A model generated the notes under the pieces. The model made no database searches. It was not told the origin of the DNA and saw only the letters and a program-made list of their open reading frames with translations. Shown piece by piece: positions 4,408 through 21,860 of a stretch of DNA of 64,000 nt. Source of the DNA: Neoaquamicrobium microcysteis (GTDB lineage: Bacteria; Pseudomonadota; Alphaproteobacteria; Rhizobiales; Rhizobiaceae); the NCBI RefSeq assembly GCF_008180155.1, contig NZ_VSZS01000060.1, forward strand, positions 124,001 through 188,000, in the 5' to 3' direction. Position numbers and translations under genes: made by a program. How positions within the stretch are numbered: the stretch's first letter is position 1; every line of letters starts with the position of its first letter.

Positions 4408-5325
4408 ATGTTCGCATATGTGCTCAGGCGTTTCGCCGGCGCGGTGCCGACGCTTTTCATCATCGTCACCATCGCTTTCTTCATGATCCGGCTGGCGCCG
4501 GGCGGTCCGTTCGACCTCGAACGGCCCCTCGACCCGCTCATCATGGCGAACCTCGAACGCGCCTTCAATTTCGACAAGCCGCTGTGGCAACAGTACCTGA
4601 TCTATCTGGGCAACCTGGCTCAGGGCGATCTGGGGCCGTCCTTCACGCGGCGCGACTTCACCGTGATGGATCTGTTCCGCACCGGTCTTCCGGTCTCGAT
4701 CCAGATCGGCGGCATGGCGCTGTCCATCGCGCTCGTGGTCGGCGTGTTTCTAGGCGCGCTGGCTGCTCTTCGGCAGAACACATGGGTCGATTACATGGTG
4801 GTCGGTACGGCCACCTTCGGCATCACCATTCCCACCTTCGTGATTGCGCCGCTGCTGTCGCTGTTCTTCGGCGTGATGATGGGTTGGCTGCCGGCCGGCG
4901 GCTGGGGCACGTGGCAGCACATGGTGCTGCCGATCGCAACGCTGGCGCTGCCGCAGATCGCCATCATCGCACGATTGACACGGGGCGCGACCATCGAGGC
5001 GCTTCGCTCCAACCACGTGCGCACCGCGCGCGCCTACGGCCTGCCGAACTACGTGGTCGTCGGCGTGCACGCGCTGCGCGCAGCCATCCTGCCGGTGGTT
5101 TCCTATCTGGGACCGACGGCGGCAGCACTTCTGACCGGGTCGGTGGTGGTCGAGACCATCTTCGGGATTCCCGGCATCGGGCGTTATTTCGTGCAGGGCG
5201 CGCTGGGGCGCGACTACACGCTGGTGATGGGGACGGTGGTGGTGATTGCGTGCTTCGTGATCGTCTTCAACCTGATCGTCGACATTCTTTATGCGTGGCT
5301 CGATCCGCGCGTGCGCTACGATTGA
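4408..5325 (+). CDS. Peptide ABC transporter permease 1 (OppB-like)
   Basis: The 305-aa protein has six predicted membrane helices and the OppB/DppB layout. It opens with a short cytoplasmic N-terminus and TM1 (MFAYVLRRFAGAVPTLF), then a periplasmic loop with the usual LWQQYLIYLGNLAQGDLG motif. The cytoplasmic EAA coupling loop is around RTARAYGLP, and the protein ends in LDPRVRYD. It forms half of the inner-membrane channel with the following gene. A GGAG site 6 bases upstream supports the start. The gene lies 15 bases after the hairpin's T-run, and the next gene begins 10 bases after its stop. Confidence 0.92.
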   Translation: MFAYVLRRFAGAVPTLFIIVTIAFFMIRLAPGGPFDLERPLDPLIMANLERAFNFDKPLWQQYLIYLGNLAQGDLGPSFTRRDFTVMDLFRTGLPVSIQIGGMALSIALVVGVFLGALAALRQNTWVDYMVVGTATFGITIPTFVIAPLLSLFFGVMMGWLPAGGWGTWQHMVLPIATLALPQIAIIARLTRGATIEALRSNHVRTARAYGLPNYVVVGVHALRAAILPVVSYLGPTAAALLTGSVVVETIFGIPGIGRYFVQGALGRDYTLVMGTVVVIACFVIVFNLIVDILYAWLDPRVRYD

Positions 5326-5335
5326 GGAGACGGGC

Positions 5336-6475
5336 ATGACCGATACCGTACTCCCCGTTGAACATCATGCCGCCGGCCGCTCCCTCGGCCAGGACGCGTG
5401 GATCCGCCTGCGGCGCAATCGTGCCGCGGTCGCAAGCGCCATCGTGCTGCTTCTGCTAGCGCTGGCGGGCATCGTCGGGCCGTGGCTGACGCCACACTCC
5501 TACGACCGCATCTACCCGCAATATGTGCGGGCGCCGGCCAGTCTCGAGGCCTACCCCAAGGAAGAGGCCATCCTGCCGGCCTTCGAAAGCGCACTGACGC
5601 GCGCACGAGTGCAGATCGGCGAGGTCGAGGTCTCCGGCTCGACGGTACGCGCGCCGGTCTCGGACGGCGAGGCGCTCGATCCGCGCATCGTGCGCTACAT
5701 CGACCGCTCCGACCTATTCTCGAACGCAAGGCTCGAGGATGCGGACGGCAACCCGCTCGCCGAAGGCGCAAGCGAAGGCGTGATGGTGGCAGACGTGCAG
5801 CGCCTGCGCTTCCTGTTCGGCACCGACGCGAACGGGCGCGACCTGCTCTCGCGCATCCTCATCGGCATCCGCATTTCGCTCGCCATCGGCGTGCTGGCAT
5901 CGGCGATGGCGCTGCTGCTCGGCGTGACCTACGGCGCGATTGCCGGCTATCTGGGCGGGCGCGTCGACAACCTGATGATGCGGGTGGTGGACATTCTCTA
6001 TTCGCTGCCCTTCATCTTCTTCGTCATCCTGCTGGTGGTCTTTTTCGGGCGAAGTTTCGTGCTGATATTCATAGCCATCGGCTGTACCGAGTGGCTCGAC
6101 ATGGCGCGCATCGTGCGCGGCCAGACGCTGACCATCAAACGTCAGGAATATGTGCAGGCGGCAGAGGCGCTGGGCGTATCCGATGCAGGCATCGTGCGCC
6201 GCCACATCATCCCCAACGCGCTCGGTCCGGTCGTGGTGTTCGTGACCCTGCTGGTGCCCAAGGCGATCCTGCTGGAGAGCCTGTTGTCATTCCTGGGGCT
6301 CGGCGTGCAGGAGCCGCTGACCAGTCTCGGCCTGTTGATCGCGGAAGGCGCGTCCAACATGCGCGGCGCGGCGTGGCTGCTGATCTATCCGGCGGTGACG
6401 CTGACGGCGATCCTTTTCGCGCTGAACTTCCTCGGCGACGGCCTGCGCGATGCGCTCGATCCGAAGGACCGCTGA
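5336..6475 (+). CDS. Peptide ABC transporter permease 2 (OppC-like)
   Basis: The 379-aa protein has TM1 near residues 30-50, then about 110 periplasmic residues before the conserved FGTDANGRDLLSRI motif, then the five remaining helices. The EAA loop (QEYVQAAEALG) couples to the ATPase. OppC and YejE proteins often have a long TM1-TM2 loop; this one is on the long side but has no visible repeats. The ATG at 5336 was chosen because it follows GAGGAGACGGGC; an in-frame ATG at 5291 lies inside the preceding gene. The next gene starts 1 base after the stop. Confidence 0.9.
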   Translation: MTDTVLPVEHHAAGRSLGQDAWIRLRRNRAAVASAIVLLLLALAGIVGPWLTPHSYDRIYPQYVRAPASLEAYPKEEAILPAFESALTRARVQIGEVEVSGSTVRAPVSDGEALDPRIVRYIDRSDLFSNARLEDADGNPLAEGASEGVMVADVQRLRFLFGTDANGRDLLSRILIGIRISLAIGVLASAMALLLGVTYGAIAGYLGGRVDNLMMRVVDILYSLPFIFFVILLVVFFGRSFVLIFIAIGCTEWLDMARIVRGQTLTIKRQEYVQAAEALGVSDAGIVRRHIIPNALGPVVVFVTLLVPKAILLESLLSFLGLGVQEPLTSLGLLIAEGASNMRGAAWLLIYPAVTLTAILFALNFLGDGLRDALDPKDR

Positions 6476-8946: not shown

Positions 8947-9099
8947 ATGACATATGTGAGCAATCCGCGGCATGGCCGCAAGACTGCGAGAATCGACGCC
9001 GACAGGACGACCGTCCGCAATGTCGGGGCTGTAACCTACATCGCCTTCGCATTGTCAGTTGGCTTTGCTGCCGCCCTGATCTTCGGCTTCCTCGCCTGA
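8947..9099 (+). CDS. Small single-span membrane protein, 50 aa
   Basis: This ORF has a strong GGAGG (8937-8941) 5 bases before its ATG. The protein has a basic N-terminal half (MTYVSNPRHGRKTARIDADR) and one hydrophobic helix (about residues 27-49, ending LIFGFLA) at its very end. It would sit in the inner membrane with its basic part in the cytoplasm. The operator-like palindrome lies just upstream, and the luciferase-like monooxygenase gene follows after 118 bases. No family is recognised; it could be a small membrane regulator or transporter accessory. Confidence 0.55.
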   Translation: MTYVSNPRHGRKTARIDADRTTVRNVGAVTYIAFALSVGFAAALIFGFLA

Positions 9100-9217
9100 C
9101 GCATAGCGGGCGGCGGACGTCGCCCGCTTCATTATCAATTTCCAGATTCAGGAGTTCACAGGTCGGCTGCACCCGCAGCCGTCAACGGGGTTTGACGATC
9201 GAAAAAGGGAGATCGCC

Positions 9218-10159
9218 ATGTCTATACGACTTACGCATGTTCCCGCCGACCAGACTGGTTTCGAAAGTGAGGGTGATGCACCCTTCTTCTTCGAAGCAGA
9301 AAGAGCGCTTCGCACGCTGCGGCATCTCGAGGACGCGGGTTTCGACGGGGTGCTGATCGACAGCGCCGGCGGCGTTCTTGCCAATCTCGACCTCGCCGCC
9401 CAGGCGGCCTCCGGCACCTCGGCGCTTCAGATCGCCATAGTCCATTCGCCGGGCATACTGGCACCCGATATCGCCGCCCGTCAGATCGCCGCGCTGGACG
9501 CAGCAAGTGCCGGCCGGATCGCACTGCGCATCGCAGCCGACGGCATCGGATCGCGGCGAAGTGGGCCGGCGAGCCACGCTGCGTCATTCGGCAGACTGAG
9601 CGAATATCTCGTGCTTTTGCGAAGGCTGTGGGCAAACGAAGCGCCTTTCGAGCATCAAGGGCCGTTCTACACCGTAAGGGACGGGTATGTCGCGCTGAAG
9701 GGACCGCAGGGCATGGCGATTCCGGTTCGCATGGGCGGGCTCTCGGGCACTGCAGTTAGAACCGCGGCGCGCCATGCCGATGTATTCGAGCTGGCGCCGG
9801 GCACGCCTGAAGAGGTCCGGTTGCAGGTTTCCCGCGTTGTCGCTGCCGCCCGCGAGTTTGGCCGTGGCGACAAGATAGCCTTTGCGCTTCCCGTTCATCT
9901 TGGAAGCCCGTCTCGCGCGTCCGGCGTGCGTCTCTCCGGATCGCCCGAGGAAGTTGCCTTGGCGCTGCTACCCTACGCCGCGCTGGGGGTGACGGAACTG
10001 ATGATCGCAGGCTTGACGACCGCGCGCGAGATAGAACTTTTCGGCAGGCACACGGCGCCGCTGCTGCGCAATTCCATCCGCCGCCGTCTCGCGCCGGAGC
10101 CGGTTCTGCCGAGTGTCGGCGATGCGTCACCTGAAATGGCCGGGCGAAGCCGGCACTGA
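9218..10159 (+). CDS. Luciferase-like (LLM class) flavin-dependent monooxygenase
   Basis: The 313-aa protein follows the bacterial luciferase/SsuD barrel. It has an early AERALRTLRHLEDAGFDGVLI segment, a middle SEYLVLLRRLW helix followed by FEHQGPFYTV, then IPVRMGG and the late YAALGVTELMIAG strand. Family members use FMNH2 and oxygen to cleave C-S bonds or oxidise other substrates. It is shorter than SsuD (about 380 aa). Location between palindrome-controlled small ORFs, an Rrf2 regulator and the sulfate importer suggests organosulfur scavenging, which is inference. AGGGAGA upstream supports the ATG. It converges on the Rrf2 gene. Confidence 0.8.
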   Translation: MSIRLTHVPADQTGFESEGDAPFFFEAERALRTLRHLEDAGFDGVLIDSAGGVLANLDLAAQAASGTSALQIAIVHSPGILAPDIAARQIAALDAASAGRIALRIAADGIGSRRSGPASHAASFGRLSEYLVLLRRLWANEAPFEHQGPFYTVRDGYVALKGPQGMAIPVRMGGLSGTAVRTAARHADVFELAPGTPEEVRLQVSRVVAAAREFGRGDKIAFALPVHLGSPSRASGVRLSGSPEEVALALLPYAALGVTELMIAGLTTAREIELFGRHTAPLLRNSIRRRLAPEPVLPSVGDASPEMAGRSRH

Positions 10160-10186
10160 GCGCGCACCGGCCGGCAGTCATCGAAG

Positions 10187-10642
10187 TCAGGCGTGGACCT
10201 GCAACACGGCAGCGGCGTCGTCGTCGTTCGCCGGCTGGTCGCGCATTTCCGCAAGACTGCGATTGTCAAGAACCTCGGCAATCGCGGCGCGCACGTCCAG
10301 CATCATGTGGCGCACCTGGCAAGTGGCCTCGTCGCAATCGTCGCAGCGCTCGTAGCGGGTGCGGCTTGCGCAGGATATCGGCGCGAGCGGCCCGTCAAGA
10401 ACCCGGACGACATGACCGACCTTGATCTCGCTCGCGGGCCGCGCCAGCCGGTAGCCGCCGTCCTTGCCCTTGCGGCTCTGTACGAAGCCGGCATTGCGCA
10501 GTTCGCCGAGGATTGCGTCGAGAAACTTCTTCGGAATGTTGTTGGCACTGGCGATGTCGTTGACGAAGGCAAGCTGTCCAGCCGGCAGGTGCGCCAGATG
10601 CACGAGAGCCTTGAGCCCGTATTTGCCTTTTCTCGTCAGCAT
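10187..10642 (-). CDS. Rrf2-family transcriptional regulator with cysteine cluster
   Basis: The 151-aa protein has the Rrf2 winged helix (MLTRKGKYGLKALVHLA, recognition region near IPKKFLDAIL, wing at GKDGGYRLARP). It also has a Cys-rich segment with Cys at residues 91, 100, 103 and 108. IscR and RirA bind an Fe-S cluster through three cysteines in this same segment, so cluster binding is plausible, although the spacing differs. CymR, the Rrf2 regulator of sulfur genes in Firmicutes, lacks such cysteines. It lies downstream of cysA and beside the luciferase-like gene, which fits control of sulfur acquisition. Confidence 0.85.
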   Translation of the reverse strand: MLTRKGKYGLKALVHLAHLPAGQLAFVNDIASANNIPKKFLDAILGELRNAGFVQSRKGKDGGYRLARPASEIKVGHVVRVLDGPLAPISCASRTRYERCDDCDEATCQVRHMMLDVRAAIAEVLDNRSLAEMRDQPANDDDAAAVLQVHA

Positions 10643-10720
10643 CTGCGCGTGCGCCTCCCGGCGAGCAGCCGGCCGTTGAAACGGTTCCGGTGCGCGAAAT
10701 CCTGCCCGCCCCTACCCGTC

Positions 10721-10873: not shown

Positions 10874-11893
10874 TTACGCGGCGAAGACGTTGCAACGCAG
10901 AACCTGTATGAAGCCGCGATCGTTGGCTGCGATCTTCGTGTCCGCCGCGACATCCAGTTCCACGACTTCGCCGCCTTCGGTGCGCGCCAGCACGCGCCGC
11001 CCTTCCGGCCTGTCGATCACGCGCGTGACCTGCGCGGGTATGCCGCCGCCGTCGGTCTGCCAGCCGAGATCGCCCGGCCGAGCCAGAAGCTCGACGGGAC
11101 CGTCAGCCACGCCCTGCGCGTCGAAACTCGCGCCCGCTATCACGGCCCTGCCGCCGGAAGCGGTGCCGGGCAGCCTGTTCGTATCGCCAAGGAACTTCAT
11201 CACGAAGGCCGAATCCGGCCGGCGGCAGACGTCTTCCGGCGTGCCCTGCTGCACGATGCGCCCCTGATCGAGAATGACGACGCGGTCCGCCAGATCCAGC
11301 GCCTCTTCCTGATCGTGGGTGACGAACAGCGTCGTGATGCCGAGCTCGTCATGGATTTCGCGCAGCCATCGGCGCAAGTCGCGCCGCACGTTGGCGTCGA
11401 GCGCGCCGAACGGCTCGTCGAGCAACAGAACCTTGGGATCGACGGCGAGAGCGCGGGCGAGCGCCACGCGCTGGCGCTGGCCGCCGGAAATCTGCGTAGG
11501 GAAGCGGTTGCCGAGCCCGTCGAGCTTTACCAGCCGCAGCAGTTCCTCGACCCGCGCGTCGATTTCCGGCTTGGCGCGGCGTACCTTGGAGACCTTCATG
11601 CCGAAGGCGACGTTCTCGCCAACCGTCATGTGCGGGAACAGCGCATAGTGCTGGAAGACGAAGCCGACGCCTCGCTGGCGCACCGGAATCTCCGTCGCGT
11701 CCTCGTCGCCGAAATAGATCGCGCCGCCATCGGCGTATTCCAGCCCCGCGACCATGCGCAGGATCGTGGTCTTGCCGGAGCCTGAGGGGCCGAGCAAGGC
11801 GACGAGCTCGCCGCTCCCGATCTCCAAGGAGACGCCATGGACCGCGCGGAAAGTGTCGAATGTCTTGATGACGTTGTCGAGGATGATCTTCAT
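10874..11893 (-). CDS. cysA: Sulfate/thiosulfate ABC transporter ATP-binding protein
   Basis: The 339-aa protein starts [20 protein letters not shown] and has Walker [10 protein letters not shown], signature ISGGQRQRV, Walker [18 protein letters not shown] and switch VTHDQEEA. The [12 protein letters not shown] stretch that begins the C-terminal regulatory domain is typical of CysA. It hydrolyses ATP to drive sulfate or thiosulfate uptake through CysT and CysW. Its ATG overlaps the cysW stop (ATGA), so the two are translationally coupled. It is the last gene of the leftward sbp-cysTWA operon; the Rrf2 gene follows 231 bases later on the same strand. Confidence 0.95.
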
Positions 11894-12783
11894 GACGTCT
11901 TTCCCTGGGCGATCGTGGCCGGCCCCGCAAGCGCCGGCCTGCCGGCACGGCCCGCACCGCGGCGCTCCAGCGCAAGCTTGGCGACGATGGTGACGAGAGC
12001 CAGCAGCGCGAGGATGGAAGCGGCCGCGAACGCGCCGACCGTGTTGTAGTCGTGGTAGAGAAGCTCGATGTGCAGCGGCAGCGTGTTGGTCTGGCCGCGT
12101 ATCTTGCCCGAGACCACCGACACCGCGCCGAACTCGCCCATCACGCGGGCATTGCACAGCACGACGCCGTAGAGCAGCGCCCAGCGGATGTTGGGCAGCG
12201 TGACCGACAGGAAGGTGCGCCAGCCTGACGCTCCCAGCGAGGTGGCCGCCTCCTCGAGGTCGCGCCCCTGCGCCTGCATCAGCGGTATCAGCTCGCGCGC
12301 CACGAACGGGGCGGTCACGAACATCGACGCCAGGACAATGCCCGGCAGCGCGAAGAGCACCTTGATCTCTGCCGACTGCAGCGCCGGGCCGAATAGGCCC
12401 TGAAGTCCGTAGACAAAGAGATAGGCGACACCCGCCACGATCGGAGAGATCGAGAACGGGATCTCGATGACGATCAGCAGGAAGCGCCGGCCCCAGAAAT
12501 CGAACTTGGTGATGGCCCACGCCGCTGCGATGCCGAACGCGGTGTTGAGCGGCACGGCGATCAGCGCTGTCATGACCGTGAGATAGATGGCGTGGCGCGT
12601 GTCGGGATGCGCGATGGTGGCCGTGAAATGGCCGACGCCCAGCGAAAATGCCTGGGTGAAAATGACAAGCAGCGGCGCAAGCACGAACAGCGCACCGATG
12701 ACGAGCACGAAGCCGATCATGAAGCGGCGGAAGGCCGGGGCATCGCCAATCCGGGGCGGCTTGTTGGCGTGGCGCGCGCTCAT
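11890..12783 (-). CDS. cysW: Sulfate ABC transporter permease CysW
   Basis: The 297-aa protein has six membrane helices and CysW hallmarks. These include [20 protein letters not shown] after TM1, the [15 protein letters not shown] coupling loop and [18 protein letters not shown] near the end. It pairs with CysT to form the sulfate channel. The ATG at 12783 begins [13 protein letters not shown]; longer upstream reading overlaps cysT in another frame and is rejected. The start is 2 bases past the cysT stop, and the end overlaps cysA. Confidence 0.94.
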
Positions 12784-12785
12784 GG

Positions 12786-13607
12786 TCAGTTCCTCGCCGT
12801 GTAGCGCAGGGCGCGCGCCTGCAAATAGTTGGTCAACGCCAGCATGACGAAGGCGGTGATGAGAAGCACGGAGGCGATGGCGGCTGCGCCCGCGTAATTG
12901 TATTCCTCCAGCCTGATGAAGGCGAGCAGCGCGGTGATCTCGGTCGACATCGGCCGGTTGCCGGCGATGAAGATGATCGCGCCGAACTCGCCCAGGCTGC
13001 GGGCGAACGTGAGCGACGAGCCGGCGAGCAGCGCAGGCGTCAGCAGCGGAAGGATGACGCGGCCGAAGATTTGCCAGTCGGTGCCGCCAAGCGACTGCCC
13101 GGCCTCCTCGAGCGCGGGGTCGAGGTCTTCGAGCACAGGCTGAACTGTGCGCACCATGAAGGGCATGCTGGTGAAGAACATCGCCACCATGATGCCGAGC
13201 GGCGTATAGACAACCTGAACGCCAAACTGCGCGAGGAGCGAGCCGAGCCAGCCATTCTGGGCGAACAACGCGGTGAGCGCGATGCCGGCGACCGCCGTGG
13301 GCAACGCGAAGGGCAGATCGACGATGGCATCGACAAATCGCTTGCCGGGAAACTCGTAGCGCACCAGCACCCAAGCGAGCGACATGCCGAAGACCACGTT
13401 GGCGGCGGTGGCGCCGAGTGCGCAAAGCACGGTGACGCGATAGCTGGCTACGGCCCGATCCGAGGATATGATGCGCCAGTAATCCTCGAACCCAAGGCTG
13501 GCCGCCTTGAAGACCAGCGCGCCAAGCGGCAGCAGGACGATCAGCGCGACATAAAACAGGGTTATGCCGAGCGACAGAGGCAGTCCTGGCAACACGCGGC
13601 GTCTCAA
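12786..13607 (-). CDS. cysT: Sulfate ABC transporter permease CysT (CysU)
   Basis: The 273-aa protein opens [19 protein letters not shown] and has six membrane helices. Its coupling loop is [19 protein letters not shown] and it ends with [18 protein letters not shown], both diagnostic of CysT/CysU. It is the first permease gene after the binding protein, separated from it by 80 bases that contain a strong hairpin. It works with CysW and CysA in the inner membrane. Confidence 0.94.
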
Positions 13608-13635
13608 CTGACGTACCCTTCGATCAAAATGGAGC

Positions 13636-13663
13636 GGCCGGCGGACTGCGCAGCCCGCCGGCC
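13636..13663 (-). terminator. GC-rich hairpin between sbp and cysT
   Basis: GGCCGGCGG (13636-13644) and CCGCCGGCC (13655-13663) are perfect 9-bp arms around a 10-base loop that itself contains the palindrome CTGCGCAG. On the transcribed minus strand it follows the sbp stop and is followed by a short T-rich stretch (CCATTTTGAT). It sits in the same place as the hairpin at 4360-4393, between binding protein and permease genes, and probably tunes their ratio. Confidence 0.6.
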
Positions 13664-13687
13664 TTGAACCCTAAAAGGGGTGGGGCG

Positions 13688-14689
13688 TCAACGTTCGCCG
13701 TAAATCTGGTCGAGCAGCGCGCCGGATGCGAAGTGGTTCTCCTGGATAGCATCCCAGCCGCCGAATACGTCTTCGGCTGTGACGAGGCGCACTTCCGGGA
13801 AGTCTTCGGCGAACTCGGCCTTTACCGTCTCGTCATGGACACGGTTGCCATGCTGGGCGACGATGCGCTGGCCTTCCTCTGAATAGAGGAATTCGAGATA
13901 GGCCTTTGCCAGTTCGCCGCTGCCGCGTCTGTCCGCGACACGATCGACGATGGCGACAGGGAACTCGGCCAAAAGGCTGACCGAAGGCACGACGAGATCG
14001 AACTTGTCGTCGCCGAACTCCCTGGCGATGCCGCGCGTCTCGGCCTCGAAGGTGATGATGACGTCGCCGATCCCGCGCTCCACGAAGGTGGTGGTCGCGC
14101 CACGGCCGCCGGTGTCGAACACGGGCACGTTGTCGAAAATCTTGGTGATGAACGCGGTCACCTGCTCCTGGTCGCCGTCGAAGGCTTCAAGCGCGTAGGC
14201 GGTTGCTGCCAGATAGGTGTAGCGCGCATTGCCCGAGGTCTTGGGGTTGGGGAAGATCACCTGCACGTCGTCGCGGGCGAGGTCGTCCCAGTCGTTGATG
14301 TCCTTCGGGTTGCCCTCGCGCACGAGGAAGGACGGAAACGAGTAGTAGGGCGAGGCGTTGTTCGGGAACTCGCTCTGCCAGTCCTCGCTGACGAGGCCGT
14401 TCTGGACGAGGAAGTCGATGTCCGTGACCTGGTTGAAGGTCACCACGTCGGCCTCCAGCCCCTCGACGATGGAGCGCGCCTGAGCGGACGTGCCGCTGTG
14501 CGACTGGTCGACCGTGACGTCCTGTCCCGTCGCCGCCTTGTAGGCCGGAACGAACGCTTCGTTGACGGCGACGAACAGTTCGCGCGCAATGTCGTAGGAG
14601 GCGTTGAGGATGCTGTTCGGCGACTGCGCCTGAGCGGGAGCCGTGAACACGAGCGCGGCTGCGGCGCCGGCGAGAAGAAGGCGTCTCAT
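13688..14689 (-). CDS. sbp: Sulfate-binding periplasmic protein
   Basis: The 333-aa protein has a signal peptide (MRRLLLAGAAAALVFTAPAQA) followed by NSILNASYDIARELF and QSHSGTSAQARSI, which are conserved sulfate-contact segments of Sbp/CysP. The stretch PNPKTSGNARYTYLAA and the end segment AYLEFLYSEEGQRIV also match. It binds sulfate or thiosulfate in the periplasm and feeds CysTWA. The ATG at 14689 was chosen over 14749 because AGGAG lies 6 bases upstream and the signal peptide begins there. It heads the leftward operon. Confidence 0.94.
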   Translation of the reverse strand: MRRLLLAGAAAALVFTAPAQAQSPNSILNASYDIARELFVAVNEAFVPAYKAATGQDVTVDQSHSGTSAQARSIVEGLEADVVTFNQVTDIDFLVQNGLVSEDWQSEFPNNASPYYSFPSFLVREGNPKDINDWDDLARDDVQVIFPNPKTSGNARYTYLAATAYALEAFDGDQEQVTAFITKIFDNVPVFDTGGRGATTTFVERGIGDVIITFEAETRGIAREFGDDKFDLVVPSVSLLAEFPVAIVDRVADRRGSGELAKAYLEFLYSEEGQRIVAQHGNRVHDETVKAEFAEDFPEVRLVTAEDVFGGWDAIQENHFASGALLDQIYGER

Positions 14690-15175
14690 AAGGGTCTCCT
14701 GAGGACGAAAACGCATTTGCAGATGTGACCACAATATCGGGGCCGACACCGCGCGAAGAGGCAGCGTGATGCGTGATGCGGGGTTGTCGTAGAAAATTCA
14801 TCCCCTTACCGCCGGTGATGAGCACGCGTTTTTCGCGGTGCGATCAACGGGCCCCTTCGGTCATTGGCAGGAGGTGGCCGGCGGAGCGCAGGCGCTGGCA
14901 GGCAGGAGCGGCTGGGTGCGCGTATGAGTGCGCACAAGTAGGCTTTTCCACAGACCCATCTCAGGGGGGTATGATTTGTCGCATCTGACGAGGATGTGAG
15001 AAATGCGTTCCTCACGTTTCAAAACAGCTTGAAATAAACAACTTTTCGCGTGTTACCGGCTTTTGGCGGCCCGGACGCGACAAGTAGCGACCCCGCCTGC
15101 ACCAGATTGCGGTTTTGACATGCCCCCGAATGGTGTTATGCGATTTTCAGCATCAATAAAAAGGGGAACTCAACC
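14690..15175. other. Divergent intergenic region, sbp / second peptide ABC operon
   Basis: The 486-base region has no convincing gene on either strand. It must contain the leftward promoter of the sulfate operon and the rightward promoter of the second peptide transporter; only the latter is clear (15115-15142). There is a short tandem GCGTGAT repeat near 14765-14778. I found no full match to the 8112/8905 palindrome here; TCGTAGAAAATT near 14787-14798 resembles at most a half-site. Confidence 0.6.
15115..15142 (+). promoter_or_regulatory. Sigma-70-like promoter of the second peptide ABC operon
   Basis: TTGACA (15115-15120) is consensus and is followed after 16 bases by TATGCG (15137-15142). 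The leader to the GTG start at 15176 is short and carries AAGGGGA. The -35 box is strong and the -10 box moderate. Confidence 0.45.
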
Positions 15176-16780
15176 GTGCTGCTCAGGAAAAATATTCTCG
15201 GTCTCGTTGCGACAACCACGCTGGTCGCCGCCATGGCGACAGGTGCTCTCGCGCAGGAGCGCGTGCCTGCGATCAACATCGACACGACGACCGAAGCCTA
15301 CGATCCGATCCGCTACGAGGCGGCCTACATCATCGCCGAGAAATGGCGTGAGCTGGGTTTGGAAGTGAACGTGCGGCCGACCGAATTTTCCACGCTGCTG
15401 GGCAAGTTCTACGATCAGCAGGATTTCGACGCGGCCATCGTGGGCTGGTCGGGCCGTATCGATCGTCTCGATCCGCATTTCTATCTGGGCACACTCGATT
15501 CACGCGCGACCAGCCTGGGCGCGAACAATCCCGGTGGCTACAGCAACCCCAAAGTCGATGAACTCTTCGACGCGCAGGCACGCGAGTTCGATACCGAGGC
15601 GCGGCGTGACCTCGTGCATGAACTGCAGGAAACCTATGTTCCCGATGCGCCGGTGATCGTGCTGTTCTACCGCGACGAGGTGGTCGCCTACAACAACACC
15701 GCCTTCGGCGAGATGAACGCCATGGCCGGTGAAGGTCTCTACAGCGAATGGACGCCGATGCAGGCACAGCCGCTAACCGACCGCAAGACGCTGCGCATCG
15801 GTGGCCCGCAGGAGCCCGACAATCTCAATCCGCTTGCCTCGACCTCGGTCTGGGGCTGGAAGTGGATGCGCCTCTACTACGACCGCCTCGTGCGCCTGAC
15901 GCCCGATGTCGAGCCGATGAACTGGATGGCGGCTTCGGTCGAGGCCGTCGACGAGACGACGATCGACGTCACGCTGCGCGAAGGTCTGACCTTCCACGAT
16001 GGCGAGCCGGTGACGGCCGAAGACGTGGCCTTCACCTTCGGCTACTATCAGGCGCAGGACTATGCCTATTTCGACGCCTACCTCGCCCCGGTCGATACAG
16101 TCGAGGCGACCGGCGACCTGACCGTTCGCTTCAACCTGAAGACGCCTTCGGCCTCCTTCGCAAACATCGCGCTTTCGCAGATTCCGATCCTGCCCAAGCA
16201 CATCTGGGAGGCGATCGAGAACCCGGGCGACCTCACGCCCGAGCAAATCCCGACCGTGGGTTCAGGCCCGTTCAAATACGCCAGCTACAATCGCGGCGAG
16301 ATCATGTCGCTGGAAAAGAACGCTGACCACTTCCAGGCCGACGACATTGCCGTCGACGGGGTCGAGTTCGTGATCTACGCCGACATGGAAGGCGTGTTCA
16401 CCGCACTCCAGACGCAGGCGATCGACATGACCGCGTGGCGCATGGAAGCAGGCCAGATTCCGCTGGCTGAATCCGCCGACCACCTCAGCGTCGTTTCGGT
16501 TCCCGACTTCGGCTACTACCACATGACCTACAACACGCGCCGCGCACCGTTCGACGATGTGGCCGTGCGTCGCGCTCTGACCAAGGCAATGGACCGCGAG
16601 CGGATGGTCAACGTGCTGCTCGACGGGCGCGGCGAAGTCGGCACCAGCGTCATCGCGCCGGTCAATGCCTTCTGGCACAACCCCTTCGTCGAAACCTTCG
16701 ATTTCGACATGGAAGCGGCAAAGGCCGAGCTGGAAGAGGCTGGCTATTCCTGGGACAGTGAAGGCCGGCTCGTAAAGTAA
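15176..16780 (+). CDS. Peptide-type ABC substrate-binding protein with apparent circular permutation
   Basis: The 534-aa protein starts with GTG, well placed after AAGGGGA, and has a clear signal peptide (residues 1-26, ending ATGALA). The family's normal C-terminal lobe comes first (about residues 28-195): AYIIAEKWRELGLEV, DFDAAIVGWSGRIDRLDP, GGYSNPKVDELF and VPDAPVIVLFYRDEVVAY. Only then (about 204-534) comes the normal N-terminal start, TLRIGGPQEPDNLNPL, then YDRLVRL, LREGLTFHDGEPVTAEDV and VRRALTKAMDRERM. It ends at the point (AKAELEEAGYSWDSEG) where ordinary relatives would enter the C-terminal lobe. All expected segments are present once, so this is reordering, not fusion or loss. Confidence 0.88.
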   Translation: MLLRKNILGLVATTTLVAAMATGALAQERVPAINIDTTTEAYDPIRYEAAYIIAEKWRELGLEVNVRPTEFSTLLGKFYDQQDFDAAIVGWSGRIDRLDPHFYLGTLDSRATSLGANNPGGYSNPKVDELFDAQAREFDTEARRDLVHELQETYVPDAPVIVLFYRDEVVAYNNTAFGEMNAMAGEGLYSEWTPMQAQPLTDRKTLRIGGPQEPDNLNPLASTSVWGWKWMRLYYDRLVRLTPDVEPMNWMAASVEAVDETTIDVTLREGLTFHDGEPVTAEDVAFTFGYYQAQDYAYFDAYLAPVDTVEATGDLTVRFNLKTPSASFANIALSQIPILPKHIWEAIENPGDLTPEQIPTVGSGPFKYASYNRGEIMSLEKNADHFQADDIAVDGVEFVIYADMEGVFTALQTQAIDMTAWRMEAGQIPLAESADHLSVVSVPDFGYYHMTYNTRRAPFDDVAVRRALTKAMDRERMVNVLLDGRGEVGTSVIAPVNAFWHNPFVETFDFDMEAAKAELEEAGYSWDSEGRLVK

Positions 16781-16858: not shown

Positions 16859-17836
16859 ATGTCCCGCCGCAGCTATCTGATACGCCGCGCCCTGCAGGCG
16901 TTCGTATCGCTTTTCATCATCGCGACGTTGTTGTTCTTCTTGTTTCGCGCCGGTTTGCCGGACCCGACGACGGCGCTTCTGGCTGAAGGCCTGAGCCCGG
17001 AGCAGCGCGAAATGGTACGCCGCTCGTTTGGTCTCGATCAGCCTCTATGGCAGCAATATCTGCTGTTCCTGCAGAATGCCGTGCAGGGCGATTTCGGCTT
17101 CTCGTTCCACTATCGCGCCCCGGTGGCCGACATCATCTGGGAACGGCTCGGCAACACGATGGTGCTGATGCTGACGGCGATCACCATCGCCTATGTCATC
17201 GGTGTACCGCTGGGCGCATGGCTATCCTGGCGGCGGGGTACCAGAGCCGACACGACAGGCATCTTCGTAGGCCTGATGTTCCGCTCCGCCCCGATGTTCT
17301 GGACGGGCATGATCGGCATCCTCGTCTTCGGCGTGATGCTGGGCTTCTTGCCAACCAGCGGCATGCGCACGCTGCCCTACACGGCCACAGGGTTCTTCGA
17401 CAAAATCTTCACGCTCGACTTTCTATGGCATCTGGCGCTGCCGGCCATGATCGTGGCGCTTTACTATCTCGGCTCGCCGCTGCTCATCATGCGCAACACC
17501 ATGCTCGAGGTCTATGGCGAGGACTTTATCGAGATGGCACGCGCCAAGGGGCTGCCCGAGCGGCGCATCCTCTACAACCACGCTGCGCGCAACGCGCTTC
17601 TGCCCGTCGTCACGCAGCTTGCAGTGACGATCGGGCTGGCGGCCGGCGGGCAGGTGGTGGTCGAGGTGGTGTTCTCGTGGCCGGGGCTGGGCCGTGAGAT
17701 CCTCAACGCCGTGCGCACCTCCGATTTCCCGCTGGCGCAGGCGAGCTTCCTGGTCATGGCCGCCTTCGTCATCACCCTGAACCTGCTTGTCGATATCCTC
17801 TATTCGACGCTCGACCCGAGGGTGAGTTTCAAATGA
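16859..17836 (+). CDS. Peptide-type ABC permease 1 (DppB-like)
   Basis: The 325-aa protein begins MSRRSYLIRRALQAFVSLF and has six membrane helices. The expected periplasmic segment LGLDQPLWQQYL appears here as FGLDQPLWQQYLLFLQNAVQ. The cytoplasmic coupling loop is FIEMARAKGLPERRI, and the end is STLDPRVSFK. It has ordinary length for the family, so the oddities of this transporter are confined to its other subunits. It overlaps the next gene by ATGA, which couples their translation. Confidence 0.9.
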   Translation: MSRRSYLIRRALQAFVSLFIIATLLFFLFRAGLPDPTTALLAEGLSPEQREMVRRSFGLDQPLWQQYLLFLQNAVQGDFGFSFHYRAPVADIIWERLGNTMVLMLTAITIAYVIGVPLGAWLSWRRGTRADTTGIFVGLMFRSAPMFWTGMIGILVFGVMLGFLPTSGMRTLPYTATGFFDKIFTLDFLWHLALPAMIVALYYLGSPLLIMRNTMLEVYGEDFIEMARAKGLPERRILYNHAARNALLPVVTQLAVTIGLAAGGQVVVEVVFSWPGLGREILNAVRTSDFPLAQASFLVMAAFVITLNLLVDILYSTLDPRVSFK

Positions 17837-19581
17837 TCCTGCCGTCCTACTTCAAGAGCGCGCTCGCGCCGCTGCGGTTCATGCTGATGGACCGGCTGGC
17901 GGTGATCGGCCTCGCCGTCCTGTCGCTTATCGTCGCCATGGCGCTGGCCGCGCCGCTGCTCTCCACGCACGATCCGCGCGCCGTCAACGAGGTCGAGGAC
18001 GCCTCCGTGCTCGTCCGCTCCGGCGACGCCGAAACCGGGATCGTTTGGCGGCTCGAAAACTCGCTCGGCGATGTCGCAATCCAGGCGGCGGACGATGACG
18101 GCACCGGCAACGGCATCGCCGTCGGGCGCGAAGGCACGGCTTATCGCTATACGGTCGGTGAGGGCTGGAGCGGTATCGAAACGCCGGTGGATGCCGACCT
18201 GAACGGTGTGGCAATGGCCGCCGACGGCAAAGCACTGGCGGTCGGTTCTGGCGGAACGATCCTGCACCTCGATGGCGAAGAGTGGCAGGCGATCGAGGCT
18301 CCCGCGCCCGCCGATCTGAACGCTGTCGCGTGGCTCGACGCGGGCTCGGCGCTCATTGTCGGCTCCGGCGAGGAAATATGGCGGCTCGACCTTTCGCCAT
18401 CGCCGCAGGTCACCGAAATCGACAGTCCGGTAGGACGCGGCTTTCCACTGTATGCGGTTGCGCGCGACGCGGACGGCACCATGCTGGCGGTCGGCGATCG
18501 CGGCCTTGCGATCCGTTATGACCCCGCCGACGGCAGCGCCGCGATGGAGCGGCTGGGAACGTCGCGCCAGCTCAACGGCCTGCATATCTCGCCGAGCGGC
18601 AATGCGCTCGCCGTTGGAGAGCGCGGCACTGTAGTGAGCCGTGCGGGGCCTGAGGCCCGCTGGAGCGAGGAAACGGTCGCCGAAATGCGCGCGCTGCGCA
18701 GCGGCTGGGTCGGCGACGATGGTGCCGCCTTTGCAGTGGGCCGCAACGGCACGATCATCGAGCGCGCGGCAGACGGCGAAGCATGGCAGCCGGCAAGTAG
18801 CGAAAGCGAACGTCACTTCCGTGCGGTGATGGCGGCAGGCGAAAACGTCTTCGCGCTCGGTTCCGACCGGTTCGTCAATCGCCTCGCCGCGCCGAGCGCC
18901 GACCACTGGTTCGGCACCGATCATCTCGGCCGCGATCTCTACAGCCAGAACGTTCACGGTTCGCGCATCGCGCTGCTGGTCGGCTTTCTTGGTGCGCTGC
19001 TGGTGGTGCTGATCGGTACGAATGTCGGCCTCATAGCCGGCTATTTCCGTGGCCGGACCGAGACTGTGCTGATGCGCACGGTGGACGTGATGTACGGTAT
19101 TCCCTTCGAGCCTTTTGCGCTGATTCTCGTGCTTCTGTTCGAGCCGAGCCTGACCATCGTGATCCTCGCCGTGTCGCTGCTGACATGGCGCACGGTTGCG
19201 CGGCTCATCCGCTCCCAGGTTCTGTCGCTGCGCGAACGTCCGTTCGTGAAAGCGGCACGCGTCGCCGGCGCGTCTGACCTGCGCATCATGTACCTGCACA
19301 TCTTTCCGAACGTGATGCCGCTGGTGTTCCTCGAACTAGCCATCATCGTCGGCGTTTCGATCATCGCCGAAGCCACGCTCTCCTTCCTCGGGCTCGGGCC
19401 GCCGCAGTCGATCTCGTGGGGCGGCATCCTGCATAACGCACGCCTGTCGGGCGCTTGGCGCACAGCATGGTGGTGGAACCTGCCGCCGGGCTTCTTCATC
19501 ATGACGACGGTGCTGTCCGTGTTCTTCATCTCGCGTTCGCTTGAGCTGATCGCCAACCCGCGCCTGAGGGCACGCCAATGA
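17833..19581 (+). CDS. DppC-like ABC permease with seven-repeat propeller-like insertion
   Basis: The 582-aa protein is about twice family length. TM1 is near residues 21-42. The conserved FGTDHLGRDLYSQ motif that normally follows within a few dozen residues appears only at 360-372, and the remaining five helices and the coupling loop (FVKAARVAGASDLRI) are normal. Residues about 90-350 contain seven repeats, each marked by a VG-x-x-G core: 95 IAVGREG, 135 LAVGSGG, 174 LIVGSGE, 218 LAVGDRG, 259 LAVGERG, 300 FAVGRNG and 340 FALGSDR. Their spacing is 39-44 residues. This fits a seven-bladed beta-propeller of the YCF48/BNR-like kind. By DppC topology it would lie in the periplasm. Confidence 0.88.
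   Translation: MILPSYFKSALAPLRFMLMDRLAVIGLAVLSLIVAMALAAPLLSTHDPRAVNEVEDASVLVRSGDAETGIVWRLENSLGDVAIQAADDDGTGNGIAVGREGTAYRYTVGEGWSGIETPVDADLNGVAMAADGKALAVGSGGTILHLDGEEWQAIEAPAPADLNAVAWLDAGSALIVGSGEEIWRLDLSPSPQVTEIDSPVGRGFPLYAVARDADGTMLAVGDRGLAIRYDPADGSAAMERLGTSRQLNGLHISPSGNALAVGERGTVVSRAGPEARWSEETVAEMRALRSGWVGDDGAAFAVGRNGTIIERAADGEAWQPASSESERHFRAVMAAGENVFALGSDRFVNRLAAPSADHWFGTDHLGRDLYSQNVHGSRIALLVGFLGALLVVLIGTNVGLIAGYFRGRTETVLMRTVDVMYGIPFEPFALILVLLFEPSLTIVILAVSLLTWRTVARLIRSQVLSLRERPFVKAARVAGASDLRIMYLHIFPNVMPLVFLELAIIVGVSIIAEATLSFLGLGPPQSISWGGILHNARLSGAWRTAWWWNLPPGFFIMTTVLSVFFISRSLELIANPRLRARQ
17962..18900 (+). repeat. Coding segment for the seven-repeat insertion
   Basis: This segment encodes residues about 44-356 of the permease, between TM1 and the GTD-x-x-GRD motif. 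Repeats follow the pattern hydrophobic-A-VG-x-x-G-T-I, then a variable arm with a Trp in several copies, then L-x-x-V and D-G or a similar turn. The frame is open throughout and codon use resembles the flanking permease parts, so it is not a misassembly or a pseudogene remnant. Confidence 0.8.
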
Positions 19582-21860
19582 GCGCAAACCTTCTCGACGT
19601 TCGCGATCTGGCGATCCATTACCGCACAGGCTCTGGCCCTGTGCAGGCGGTCGATGGCATCGACTTTTCGATCCGGCCCGGCGAGGCGCTGGGCCTCGTC
19701 GGCGAGTCCGGCTGCGGCAAGACCACGGCCGCCAAGGCGATGCTGAAGCTTCTTCCACCAAACGGCGAAATCCCGCGTGGTCGCATCGACTTCGGCGGAC
19801 GCGATCTCGTACCGCTGGACGAGGAAGCCATGCGGCGCGTTCGCTGGAAGGATATCGCCTGGATTTCGCAAGCCGCGATGAACGCGCTCGATCCCGTCTA
19901 TCGCGTCGGCGACCAGATCGTCGAGGCGATGCAGGCCCACATCACCATCGACACCAAAGATGCGTGGGCGCATGGTGAGACACTGTTCCGTGCGGTCGGC
20001 ATCGACCCGTCGCGGCTGCGCGCCTATCCGCACGAGATGTCGGGCGGCATGAAGCAGCGCGCCATCATCGCGATGGCGATGGCGCTCGACCCCAAGCTGG
20101 TGATCGCAGACGAGCCGACGACCGCGCTGGACGTGGTGACGCAGGCGCAAATCCTCGCGCGGCTGAGCCGTTTGCGGCGCGAACACGGCATGTCGCTGCT
20201 GTTCATCACCCACGACATTTCAGTGGTGGTGCAGACCTGCGATCGGGTGGCTGTCATGTATGGCGGCAAGATCATGGAAACCGGGCCCGTACGCGAGGTC
20301 TTCCGCCTGCCGGCGCACCCCTACACGATGGGTCTGACCAACGCGTTTCCAACGCTGGAAGGAGCAAAGCGCGAGCTGATTTCCATTCCCGGCACACCGC
20401 CGAACCTTCTGAACCCGCCCAAGGGCTGCCGCTTTGCGGCGCGATGCCCGTTCGCAGAGGAGCGCTGCCGCGAGGAAGCGCCTGCGCTGCGACAGGTGAG
20501 CGGCGATCACGCGACCGCCTGCCACTTCCCCGAGCGCGCGGAAGAGTTCCGCGTCATCGCCTCGCGCAACGAGACTTGGGAGAAAGTCGGCGAACGGCTG
20601 GGCGAAGCCATGACACCGCCGGCGTCCAAGGCGCAGGTGGAAGGCGGCAACGTCGTTGAGGTCGAAGCCCTCAAGCGGCACTTCCCGATACCCGGCGGGT
20701 TCTTCTCCTCATTCGGCGGCGGCGAGGAAAAGAAGGTCCATGCGGTCGACGGCATCGACTTCGATTTGAAGGCAGGCGAAATACTGGGACTTGCAGGCGA
20801 ATCCGGTTCCGGCAAGACCACGACCGGCGAGATGCTGGTTAAGCTGCAGGAGGTGACCGAAGGCGAGATACGCTTCGATGGAGGCGACGTATCGACGCTC
20901 AAGGGCAAGGACTTGAAGGCCTTCCGCCGCGCCGCTCAGATGGTGTTTCAGGACCCTTACCAGACGCTCAATCCCCGCTTCACGATCGCGGACATCGTCG
21001 GTGAGCCCCTCAAGATCCACAAGCTCGCTAAGGGCGACGAGCTTTCGGCAAAGGTGAAGCAGGCGCTGGAACGCGCCGGGTTGAAGCCGGCCGACACCTA
21101 CCTGGAACGGTTCCCGCACGAGCTTTCGGGCGGGCAGCGCCAGCGTGTGGCGATCGCCCGCGCTATCGTTCTGGAGCCGCGCTTCGTAGTCGCCGACGAG
21201 CCGGTATCGATGCTCGACGTGTCGATCCGGGCCGGCGTGCTCAACCTGATGCGCCGGTTCCGCGACGAACTCGGCATATCCTTTGTCTATGTCAGCCACG
21301 ACCTGCCGACGATCCGCTACGTCGCGGACCGCACAGCGATCATGTATCTCGGCGAAATCGTCGAGGTGGGCCCGACCGAGACGGTGATTGCAGAGCGCAA
21401 GCATCCCTACACGCAGCTCCTGCTGGATGCGAGCCCCGAGCCCGATCCCGACGTGGTGAAGCCGCCGCTGGAGGCGGCAGGTGAAATCCCCAGCGCCATC
21501 GAACCGCCGAACGGCTGCCGGTTCCACACGCGCTGCCCGTTGGCGACCGTGGAGTGTGGCTGGGAAGGGCGTGACGTGGCATCCGCGATCGCAGCGCGCA
21601 AGCTTGCCGGCGTCGATGTCTCCACGCTTGGCGAGCCGAAGGTCGAGGGGCTCGACATCGTGGTCACGGCGCCGCAAGGCACCGACGCAGCACGCGTCGA
21701 GATCGAAGGCGTCATGCGCGAGCGCAGCGAGGCGCTGGCGGACGCGGCACGCATGTCGGCGGATGGCGGCGCGTTGCGGCTTTCTTTCGAGCGAAAGTCG
21801 TCGCCGGCAATCCGCAATGTGGGCGTCGGCCACAAGGTCGCCTGCGTGCTCTACGACTGA
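19578..21860 (+). CDS. Fused dual-domain peptide-type ABC ATPase with C-terminal extension
   Basis: The 760-aa protein joins DppD-like and DppF-like halves. Half one has Walker A GESGCGKTT (42-50), signature MSGGMKQR and Walker [13 protein letters not shown]. Half two has Walker A GESGSGKTT (about 407-415), signature LSGGQRQRV and Walker B FVVADEPVSMLD. Each half ends with a cysteine motif of the oligopeptide-transporter tail (GCRFAARCPFAEERC; GCRFHTRCPLATVEC), a region known to hold an Fe-S cluster in some DppD proteins. About 100 residues follow the second motif, containing VEGLDIVVTAPQGTDAARVE and ending VGVGHKVACVLYD; I do not recognise them. The start overlaps the permease stop (ATGA). 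Confidence 0.9.
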   Translation: MSANLLDVRDLAIHYRTGSGPVQAVDGIDFSIRPGEALGLVGESGCGKTTAAKAMLKLLPPNGEIPRGRIDFGGRDLVPLDEEAMRRVRWKDIAWISQAAMNALDPVYRVGDQIVEAMQAHITIDTKDAWAHGETLFRAVGIDPSRLRAYPHEMSGGMKQRAIIAMAMALDPKLVIADEPTTALDVVTQAQILARLSRLRREHGMSLLFITHDISVVVQTCDRVAVMYGGKIMETGPVREVFRLPAHPYTMGLTNAFPTLEGAKRELISIPGTPPNLLNPPKGCRFAARCPFAEERCREEAPALRQVSGDHATACHFPERAEEFRVIASRNETWEKVGERLGEAMTPPASKAQVEGGNVVEVEALKRHFPIPGGFFSSFGGGEEKKVHAVDGIDFDLKAGEILGLAGESGSGKTTTGEMLVKLQEVTEGEIRFDGGDVSTLKGKDLKAFRRAAQMVFQDPYQTLNPRFTIADIVGEPLKIHKLAKGDELSAKVKQALERAGLKPADTYLERFPHELSGGQRQRVAIARAIVLEPRFVVADEPVSMLDVSIRAGVLNLMRRFRDELGISFVYVSHDLPTIRYVADRTAIMYLGEIVEVGPTETVIAERKHPYTQLLLDASPEPDPDVVKPPLEAAGEIPSAIEPPNGCRFHTRCPLATVECGWEGRDVASAIAARKLAGVDVSTLGEPKVEGLDIVVTAPQGTDAARVEIEGVMRERSEALADAARMSADGGALRLSFERKSSPAIRNVGVGHKVACVLYD

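Follow-up and report, generated by a model that had tools for sequence, protein, structure and literature searches.

We find that an importer operon in the stretch of DNA analysed here (the window, 64,000 nucleotides in full) encodes an OppC/DppC-type permease whose first and second transmembrane segments (TM1 and TM2) are set apart by about 290 extra residues, and that this propeller permease is real, conserved, rare and unexplained by error. The extra residues hold seven repeats that probably fold as a YCF48-like propeller. Judging from profiles and alignments, the substrate-binding protein (SBP) of the same operon is circularly permuted, with its C-half first, a property absent from the sequence-only reading that had described the permease.

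Operon organization

The operon comprises four open reading frames (ORFs) in a row on the plus strand, and permease C, which overlaps both neighbours by four bases, is thereby one of that row. The features, in window coordinates, are as follows.

15176..16780, plus strand: SBP (SBP_bac_5, cluster C type), circularly permuted by AppA (1xoc) alignment and half-models; signal-like N-terminus, then canonical C-half, then canonical N-half
15260..15769, plus strand: canonical C-half of the SBP, placed first (residues 29-198, 344 bits; model built from the same family, window SBP included)
15776..16753, plus strand: canonical N-half of the SBP, placed second (residues 201-526, 707.9 bits; model built from the same family, window SBP included)
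16859..17836, plus strand: permease B (DppB-like), of ordinary length, its stop overlapping the permease C start
17833..19581, plus strand: permease C (DppC-like), 582 aa, with inserted propeller-like domain (ORF, Pfam and repeat analysis)
17872..17970, plus strand: TM1 region of permease C, residues 14-46 (Pfam and hydrophobicity)
18019..18882, plus strand: seven-repeat propeller-like insert of permease C, residues 63-350 (repeats, profiles and hydrophobicity)
18895..19578, plus strand: GTDHLGRD motif, TM2-TM6 and coupling region of permease C, residues 355-582 (Pfam and sequence match)
19578..21860, plus strand: fused double ATPase (DppD-DppF type), 760 aa, its start overlapping the permease C stop

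Next downstream lies a gene for an FMN-dependent dehydrogenase. Upstream, the minus strand at 10874-14749 carries ORFs for an SBP_bac_11 solute-binding protein, two permease-like proteins and an ATPase, which we take, judging by eye, to be a sulfate or thiosulfate-type importer. In a second OppC-type permease (5291-6475, plus strand, 394 aa), the GT motif comes only at residue 177, which leaves a long segment after TM1 at the site that the insert occupies in permease C; the insert model gives no match to this second permease.

A DppC-type permease interrupted by seven repeats

The ORF at 17833-19581 translates without a stop into 582 aa. The Pfam domain OppC_N matches before the insert, at residues 19-50 (29.9 bits, cut-off 23.9), and BPD_transp_1 after it, at residues 398-579 (73 bits, cut-off 26.4). 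The earlier description of the flanks as an ordinary DppC permease is thus upheld, as is that of a GTDHLGRD motif after the repeats, which begins at residue 361. Both domains, together with an operon containing an SBP, permease B and Dpp-type ATPases, place the protein in the OppC/DppC family, from which it departs in lacking a short TM1-TM2 loop. The absence of stops, together with the purifying selection described below, rules out a pseudogene.

The sequence-only reading had listed seven VG-x-x-G cores, at residues 95, 135, 174, 218, 259, 300 and 340. The positions hold, with spacings of 40, 39, 44, 41, 41 and 40, and the strict form is found in only five of the seven: core 3 is VGSGE, core 7 is LGSDR, and an extra VG-x-x-G at residue 293 is out of repeat register. 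Self-similarity at lags of 36-46 across residues 55-353 scores 341, against 164 ± 15 in shuffles, and none of 1000 shuffles reaches the score of the insert; repeat detection had been suggested as a check. Seven repeats of about 40 residues are characteristic of YCF48 (PF14870).

On the Kyte-Doolittle scale, residues 14-46 (TM1) and 374-406 (TM2) rise above 1.6 and no 19-residue stretch within residues 47-373 does—i.e. hydrophobicity gives no extra membrane segment inside the insert. Sequence supports the proposed position of the repeat domain between TM1 and TM2, and family topology supports its proposed periplasmic location. A distance of 314 residues separates the DP and GT motifs in the window permease C, compared with 26-28 in the five sister permeases in which a script found both motifs, taken nearest each other (L036, L074, L075, L077 and L101); the L073 sister has 27 residues to its GT motif from its first DP-like place. 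The sister loops of L073, L101, L102 and L103 run from a DP-like motif through an R-L step to P-S and the GT motif, and the flanks of the window insert follow the same course; loops of the other sister permeases are more divergent. The insert model matches none of 20 compared permeases (8 sister and 12 canonical), in line with the statement that the family normally carries no such domain.

Fold of the insert

The insert is probably a YCF48-like, seven-repeat propeller-like domain that would close into a ring. On the window insert, the PSII_BNR profile (YCF48, PF14870) scores 26.4 bits, just below the Pfam gathering score of 27, with a match spanning model positions 48-296 of 303, and it reaches E < 0.01 in three of eight inserts. 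Eukaryotic propeller models in Pfam also match the window insert, far under their cut-offs, and WD40 membership was rejected on this ground; no Pfam propeller family scores above its cut-off on this insert. Aligned by hhalign with three YCF48-like sequences, the insert alignment gives 98.4% (E 1e-14, 229 columns, one repeat skipped), compared with 0.1% for a control against the unrelated SBP alignment. Of the three sequences, only the Azoarcus protein is annotated as YCF48-related (PSII_BNR, 101 bits); one of the others is a plasmid match that lacks annotation, and the last is a partial match in a genome. Among plasmid matches of the insert outside permeases, three of four are annotated as YCF48-related, and the insert profile has four weak matches to PDB sequences, the best being a G-protein beta subunit (E 0.0029).

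Residue W72 precedes the first core by 25 residues, the same spacing as that from W112, W151 and W277 to their cores; the remaining three of the seven spacings are 27, 24 and 24 (positions picked by eye). The W72 spacing fits an N-terminal strand that would close blade 7, in which case both ends of the ring would lie side by side, as insertion into a loop needs.

By eye, a 621-residue stand-alone protein (L012, 1141-3006, minus strand) seems to carry two sets of similar repeats.

A circularly permuted binding protein

The window SBP belongs to cluster C by profile (SBP_bac_5, 254.1 bits, cut-off 32.4), and peptide- and nickel-type SBPs lead the best 60 of its 86 matches to PDB chains (E up to 1e-10). 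Its half order departs from the canonical one, with the C-half before the N-half. Residues 24-345 of AppA (1xoc) align with positions 204-523 of the SBP family profile (143.9 bits), and residues 366-490 with positions 37-165 (20.6 bits, E 0.0014), while Pfam SBP_bac_5 profile positions 1-284 match residues 246-530 of the 534 in the window SBP. That the best Pfam stretch on the window SBP covers no more than these residues is a warning for annotation; in the records inspected, permuted SBPs are annotated as plain substrate-binding proteins.

Half-models built from five permuted SBPs of the propeller group were run on the ORFs of 28 sources. Among 32 SBPs, the C-half comes first in 17, the order is canonical in 8, and no C-half was detected in 7. 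The 17 come from nine propeller genomes and eight others, namely G002, G004, Microvirga, Neorhizobium, two Roseomonas and the haloarchaea Halalkalicoccus and Natrononativus. All ten propeller genomes carry a permuted SBP, which lies on the same stretch as the propeller permease in eight of the first nine and also in the tenth; the genome of L015 has it on another contig (L039).

Eight of 347 order genomes match the SBP junction model. The seven besides the window's own are all permuted, and six of these have an ordinary permease C nearby; an earlier junction model (five close rows) had found the window's own genome only among 289 class genomes. Seven of ten plasmid records with a junction match were inspected; the remaining three are from Neorhizobium, and OM-1 has a further matching place beyond those inspected. 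Permuted SBPs are found without a propeller at 15 loci, with an ordinary permease beside 14 and no permease C in the stretch of the fifteenth. The permutation therefore does not require the propeller, and a necessary tie between the two is ruled out. With these 15 loci, two of them haloarchaeal, the permutation is wider than the propeller and probably older. The counts are no measure of frequency, since the loci were chosen by junction similarity and include near-copies (G002 and G004; L101 and L102).

On the megaplasmids of Halalkalicoccus (L073, 5524-7173) and Natrononativus (L078, 5491-7185), both on the plus strand, permuted cluster C SBPs lie by ordinary permeases, and the permutation thus crosses domains of life. 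Another permuted SBP, at 9063-10676 on the minus strand of L099, is close to the propeller-type ones (387 bits) in a stretch with no permease C, and is perhaps an orphan binding protein.

Distribution of the propeller permease

The search for other permeases with the insertion, proposed in the sequence-only reading, brings the fusion to ten genomes, the window's own included. The alternative raised there, that the window had been misassembled, is rejected together with chance fusion because these ten genomes, of which at least four are metagenome-assembled, carry the same fusion. Carriers with taxon names belong to the Rhodobacteraceae and to Nitratireductor of the Hyphomicrobiales.

Within the genus, the fusion is present in three of eight genomes, window's own included, and among 60 relatives it is present in the own genome, G005 and G007; another of these relatives (G058) has two weak insert matches in a stand-alone protein. 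Genome contigs gave five loci with the fusion, of which four are metagenome-assembled; two bear the label Pararhodobacter and the other three Rhodobacteraceae. The scan behind them used six short patterns of the query and reaches close relatives alone. Of 72,556 plasmid records, five match the insert, and the sole permease among these five is on the megaplasmid of Nitratireductor sp. OM-1 (insert 47.7% identical). In the family of L014, two of 265 genomes drawn have the fusion, L014's own being one. Across 385 class and 347 order genomes drawn, the window's own genome alone has a full match, and four class genomes have partial insert matches (35-62 bits); in the L014-family, class and order scans, scoring was limited to the top 6 or 9 candidates in each genome.

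Phylogeny and selection

In a permease C tree of 29 rows, the 9 propeller permeases form one branch (100/99) and 8 permeases beside permuted SBPs form another (97/91), and these two permuted-SBP groups stand together, apart from 12 canonical permeases (100/99). In the SBP tree, the 17 permuted SBPs share one branch (99/97), and long branches leave the deeper SBP order unsure. Neither tree includes the seven order-scan loci or the propeller permease of the tenth genome. The simplest reading is that the permutation came first and the propeller later, each once in the sample; we infer this order because the permutation is the more widespread of the two, the trees being rooted for drawing only.

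The propeller evolves faster than the membrane part and is constrained. Invariant positions across the 9 propeller permeases number 89 of 288 in the propeller and 195 of 232 after it, and 13 of the 21 arginines in the window propeller are invariant in all 9. In seven pairs, dN/dS is 0.14-0.38 for the propeller and 0.014-0.067 for the membrane part, rough ratios because five of these pairs have a dS above 0.7 in the propeller; purifying selection on the propeller is found in every pair tested. By dN, the propeller changes at 2.6 to 26 times the rate of the membrane part, and at 5-fold or more in five of seven pairs. Propeller and SBP are alike acidic overall, with net charges of -22 and -43 respectively.

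A tethered docking platform and its alternatives

We tentatively favour, as a little short of probable, a reading in which the propeller, tethered beside the gate on the periplasmic side, serves as a platform for positioning the SBP. It ranks as most likely because of the site of the DppB scoop, the arginine patch of YCF48 and the loading of AztC by AztD. In E. coli DppABCDF, DppA caps DppB and DppC, and a scoop that follows TM1 of DppB enters the DppA cleft and seals the cavity (PMC12136057). YCF48 binds D1 carboxylates through an Arg patch (PMC10403576), and the AztD propeller docks to and loads AztC, the binding protein of a zinc importer (PMC6689063).

A seven-bladed YCF48-like propeller would have been inserted, once in this sample, into the periplasmic TM1-TM2 loop of permease C, in a cluster C (peptide/nickel-family) importer lineage using a permuted SBP. 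Its repeats would close into a ring on the periplasmic face beside the gate, at a site in subunit C that would correspond by pseudo-symmetry to the DppB scoop. Permanently tethered there, the propeller may bind and orient the loaded SBP, and the contact would probably be made by a conserved face rich in arginine, in the way that YCF48 holds on to the carboxylates of its membrane partner; the proposal of such a face rests on the invariance of the arginines, not on mapped positions. The substrate is probably a small peptide or a gamma-glutamyl compound, and an M20 peptidase gene lies near the operon in G005 and G007, and a gamma-glutamyltranspeptidase gene in L014 and L018. Against the platform stand the sister systems that lack a propeller, the acidity of both propeller and SBP, and the nature of AztD as a soluble, 8-bladed, metal-carrying protein, and the faster evolution of the propeller is weak for a tight interface. 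More broadly, it is possible, if rather doubtful, that there is a cluster C sub-class with permuted SBPs in bacteria and haloarchaea, one branch of which added a propeller that permanently holds or loads the SBP; in that case, SBP docking would be guided by a tethered receptor and not by free diffusion alone.

The propeller could instead be a second ligand site, one that binds substrate or a signal and passes it to the SBP or gate, or controls opening. The invariant clusters ESERH, GSDRF, GERG and GRNG could form a pocket, and the AztD propeller binds its ligand and passes it to the importer's binding protein (PMC6689063). We consider this unlikely, though well worth weighing, given an SBP that is itself intact and conserved and an insert for which the lack of any Pfam propeller family over cut-off suggests no ligand. 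Rather less probable is recruitment by the propeller of some other periplasmic protein, such as a substrate-preparing peptidase or transpeptidase: the M20 peptidase or gamma-glutamyltranspeptidase genes near four operons would fit, as would a stand-alone YCF48-related gene directly after an RND permease gene in Azoarcus, but neighbours vary between genomes, the window having its dehydrogenase next downstream, and peptidase genes also occur beside propeller-free systems.

The fold match to YCF48, which promotes D1/D2 assembly (PMC10403576), would also suit an assembly or stability factor for the permease, fused in cis as a counterpart of YCF48 for photosystem II. Yet sister permeases lack the propeller, and a fused factor would remain attached permanently, so we hold this to be improbable. 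Most improbable of all is a tolerated passenger with no transport role: the insert does evolve faster than the membrane part, but purifying selection in seven of seven pairs and retention in ten genomes speak against it.

Relation to known systems

E. coli DppABCDF resembles the window importer in operon content (SBP, permeases B and C, ATPases) and in permease C family sequence, which matches from residue 355 on. It differs in the short TM1-TM2 loop of DppC (300 aa) and the canonical order of DppA, whereas the window has a propeller-like domain of about 290 residues and a permuted SBP. Structures of E. coli DppABCDF in the PDB include 8z1v. The E. coli system is described as five separate subunits with a free binding protein (PMC12136057). 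YCF48 and the bacterial YCF48-related proteins (PF14870) share the seven repeats, and their profile covers most of its model on the window insert; YCF48 is a stand-alone protein, however, whereas the window insert is fused inside a permease and scores just below the Pfam cut-off.

Long PstC forms with an extra domain after TM1 exist, and on sequence grounds the nearest architecture found is the long PstC phosphate permease of the window's own phylum (L148-L151). These ORFs of 754-809 aa, located with TIGR02138, are also type I importer permeases and have 382-452 residues from TM1 to the next hydrophobic segment, with weak propeller matches in two of four. They differ in belonging to the phosphate family and in having a longer insert, which the insert model does not match (E 0.12 or more). 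The PstC model is absent from the best 25 of 28 NCBIfam matches of the window permease, and our permease model does not match the four long PstC proteins. Another candidate model for long PstC, PF12501, gave one frame of 795 aa and was discarded as the wrong model.

AztD is likewise a periplasmic beta-propeller working with an ABC importer binding protein; it is a separate, soluble, 8-bladed, metal-carrying zinc chaperone outside the permease (PMC6689063). TpMglB-2 of Treponema pallidum is a naturally circularly permuted importer binding protein, proposed as 'cluster Bc', with a sugar-binding cluster B fold (PMC4990184), whereas the window SBP is of the cluster C, peptide type. Among the matches listed in the open-access literature, no title or abstract start describes a propeller inside an ABC importer permease or a permuted cluster C SBP.

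In this importer lineage, the order of the SBP halves has changed and, in one branch, a large domain was added at the docking side of the permease. The pairing of a propeller permease with a permuted SBP is rare and conserved, which makes it a natural test of importer-SBP recognition, and the propeller-free sisters are ready natural controls, so that what SBP topology and the TM1-TM2 loop each contribute to docking and release can be tested directly.

The Azoarcus YCF48-related gene (L152, 4755-5735, plus strand) directly follows genes for DUF1329, DUF1302 and RND permease proteins, a neighbourhood from which YCF48-like propellers may serve other transporters too.
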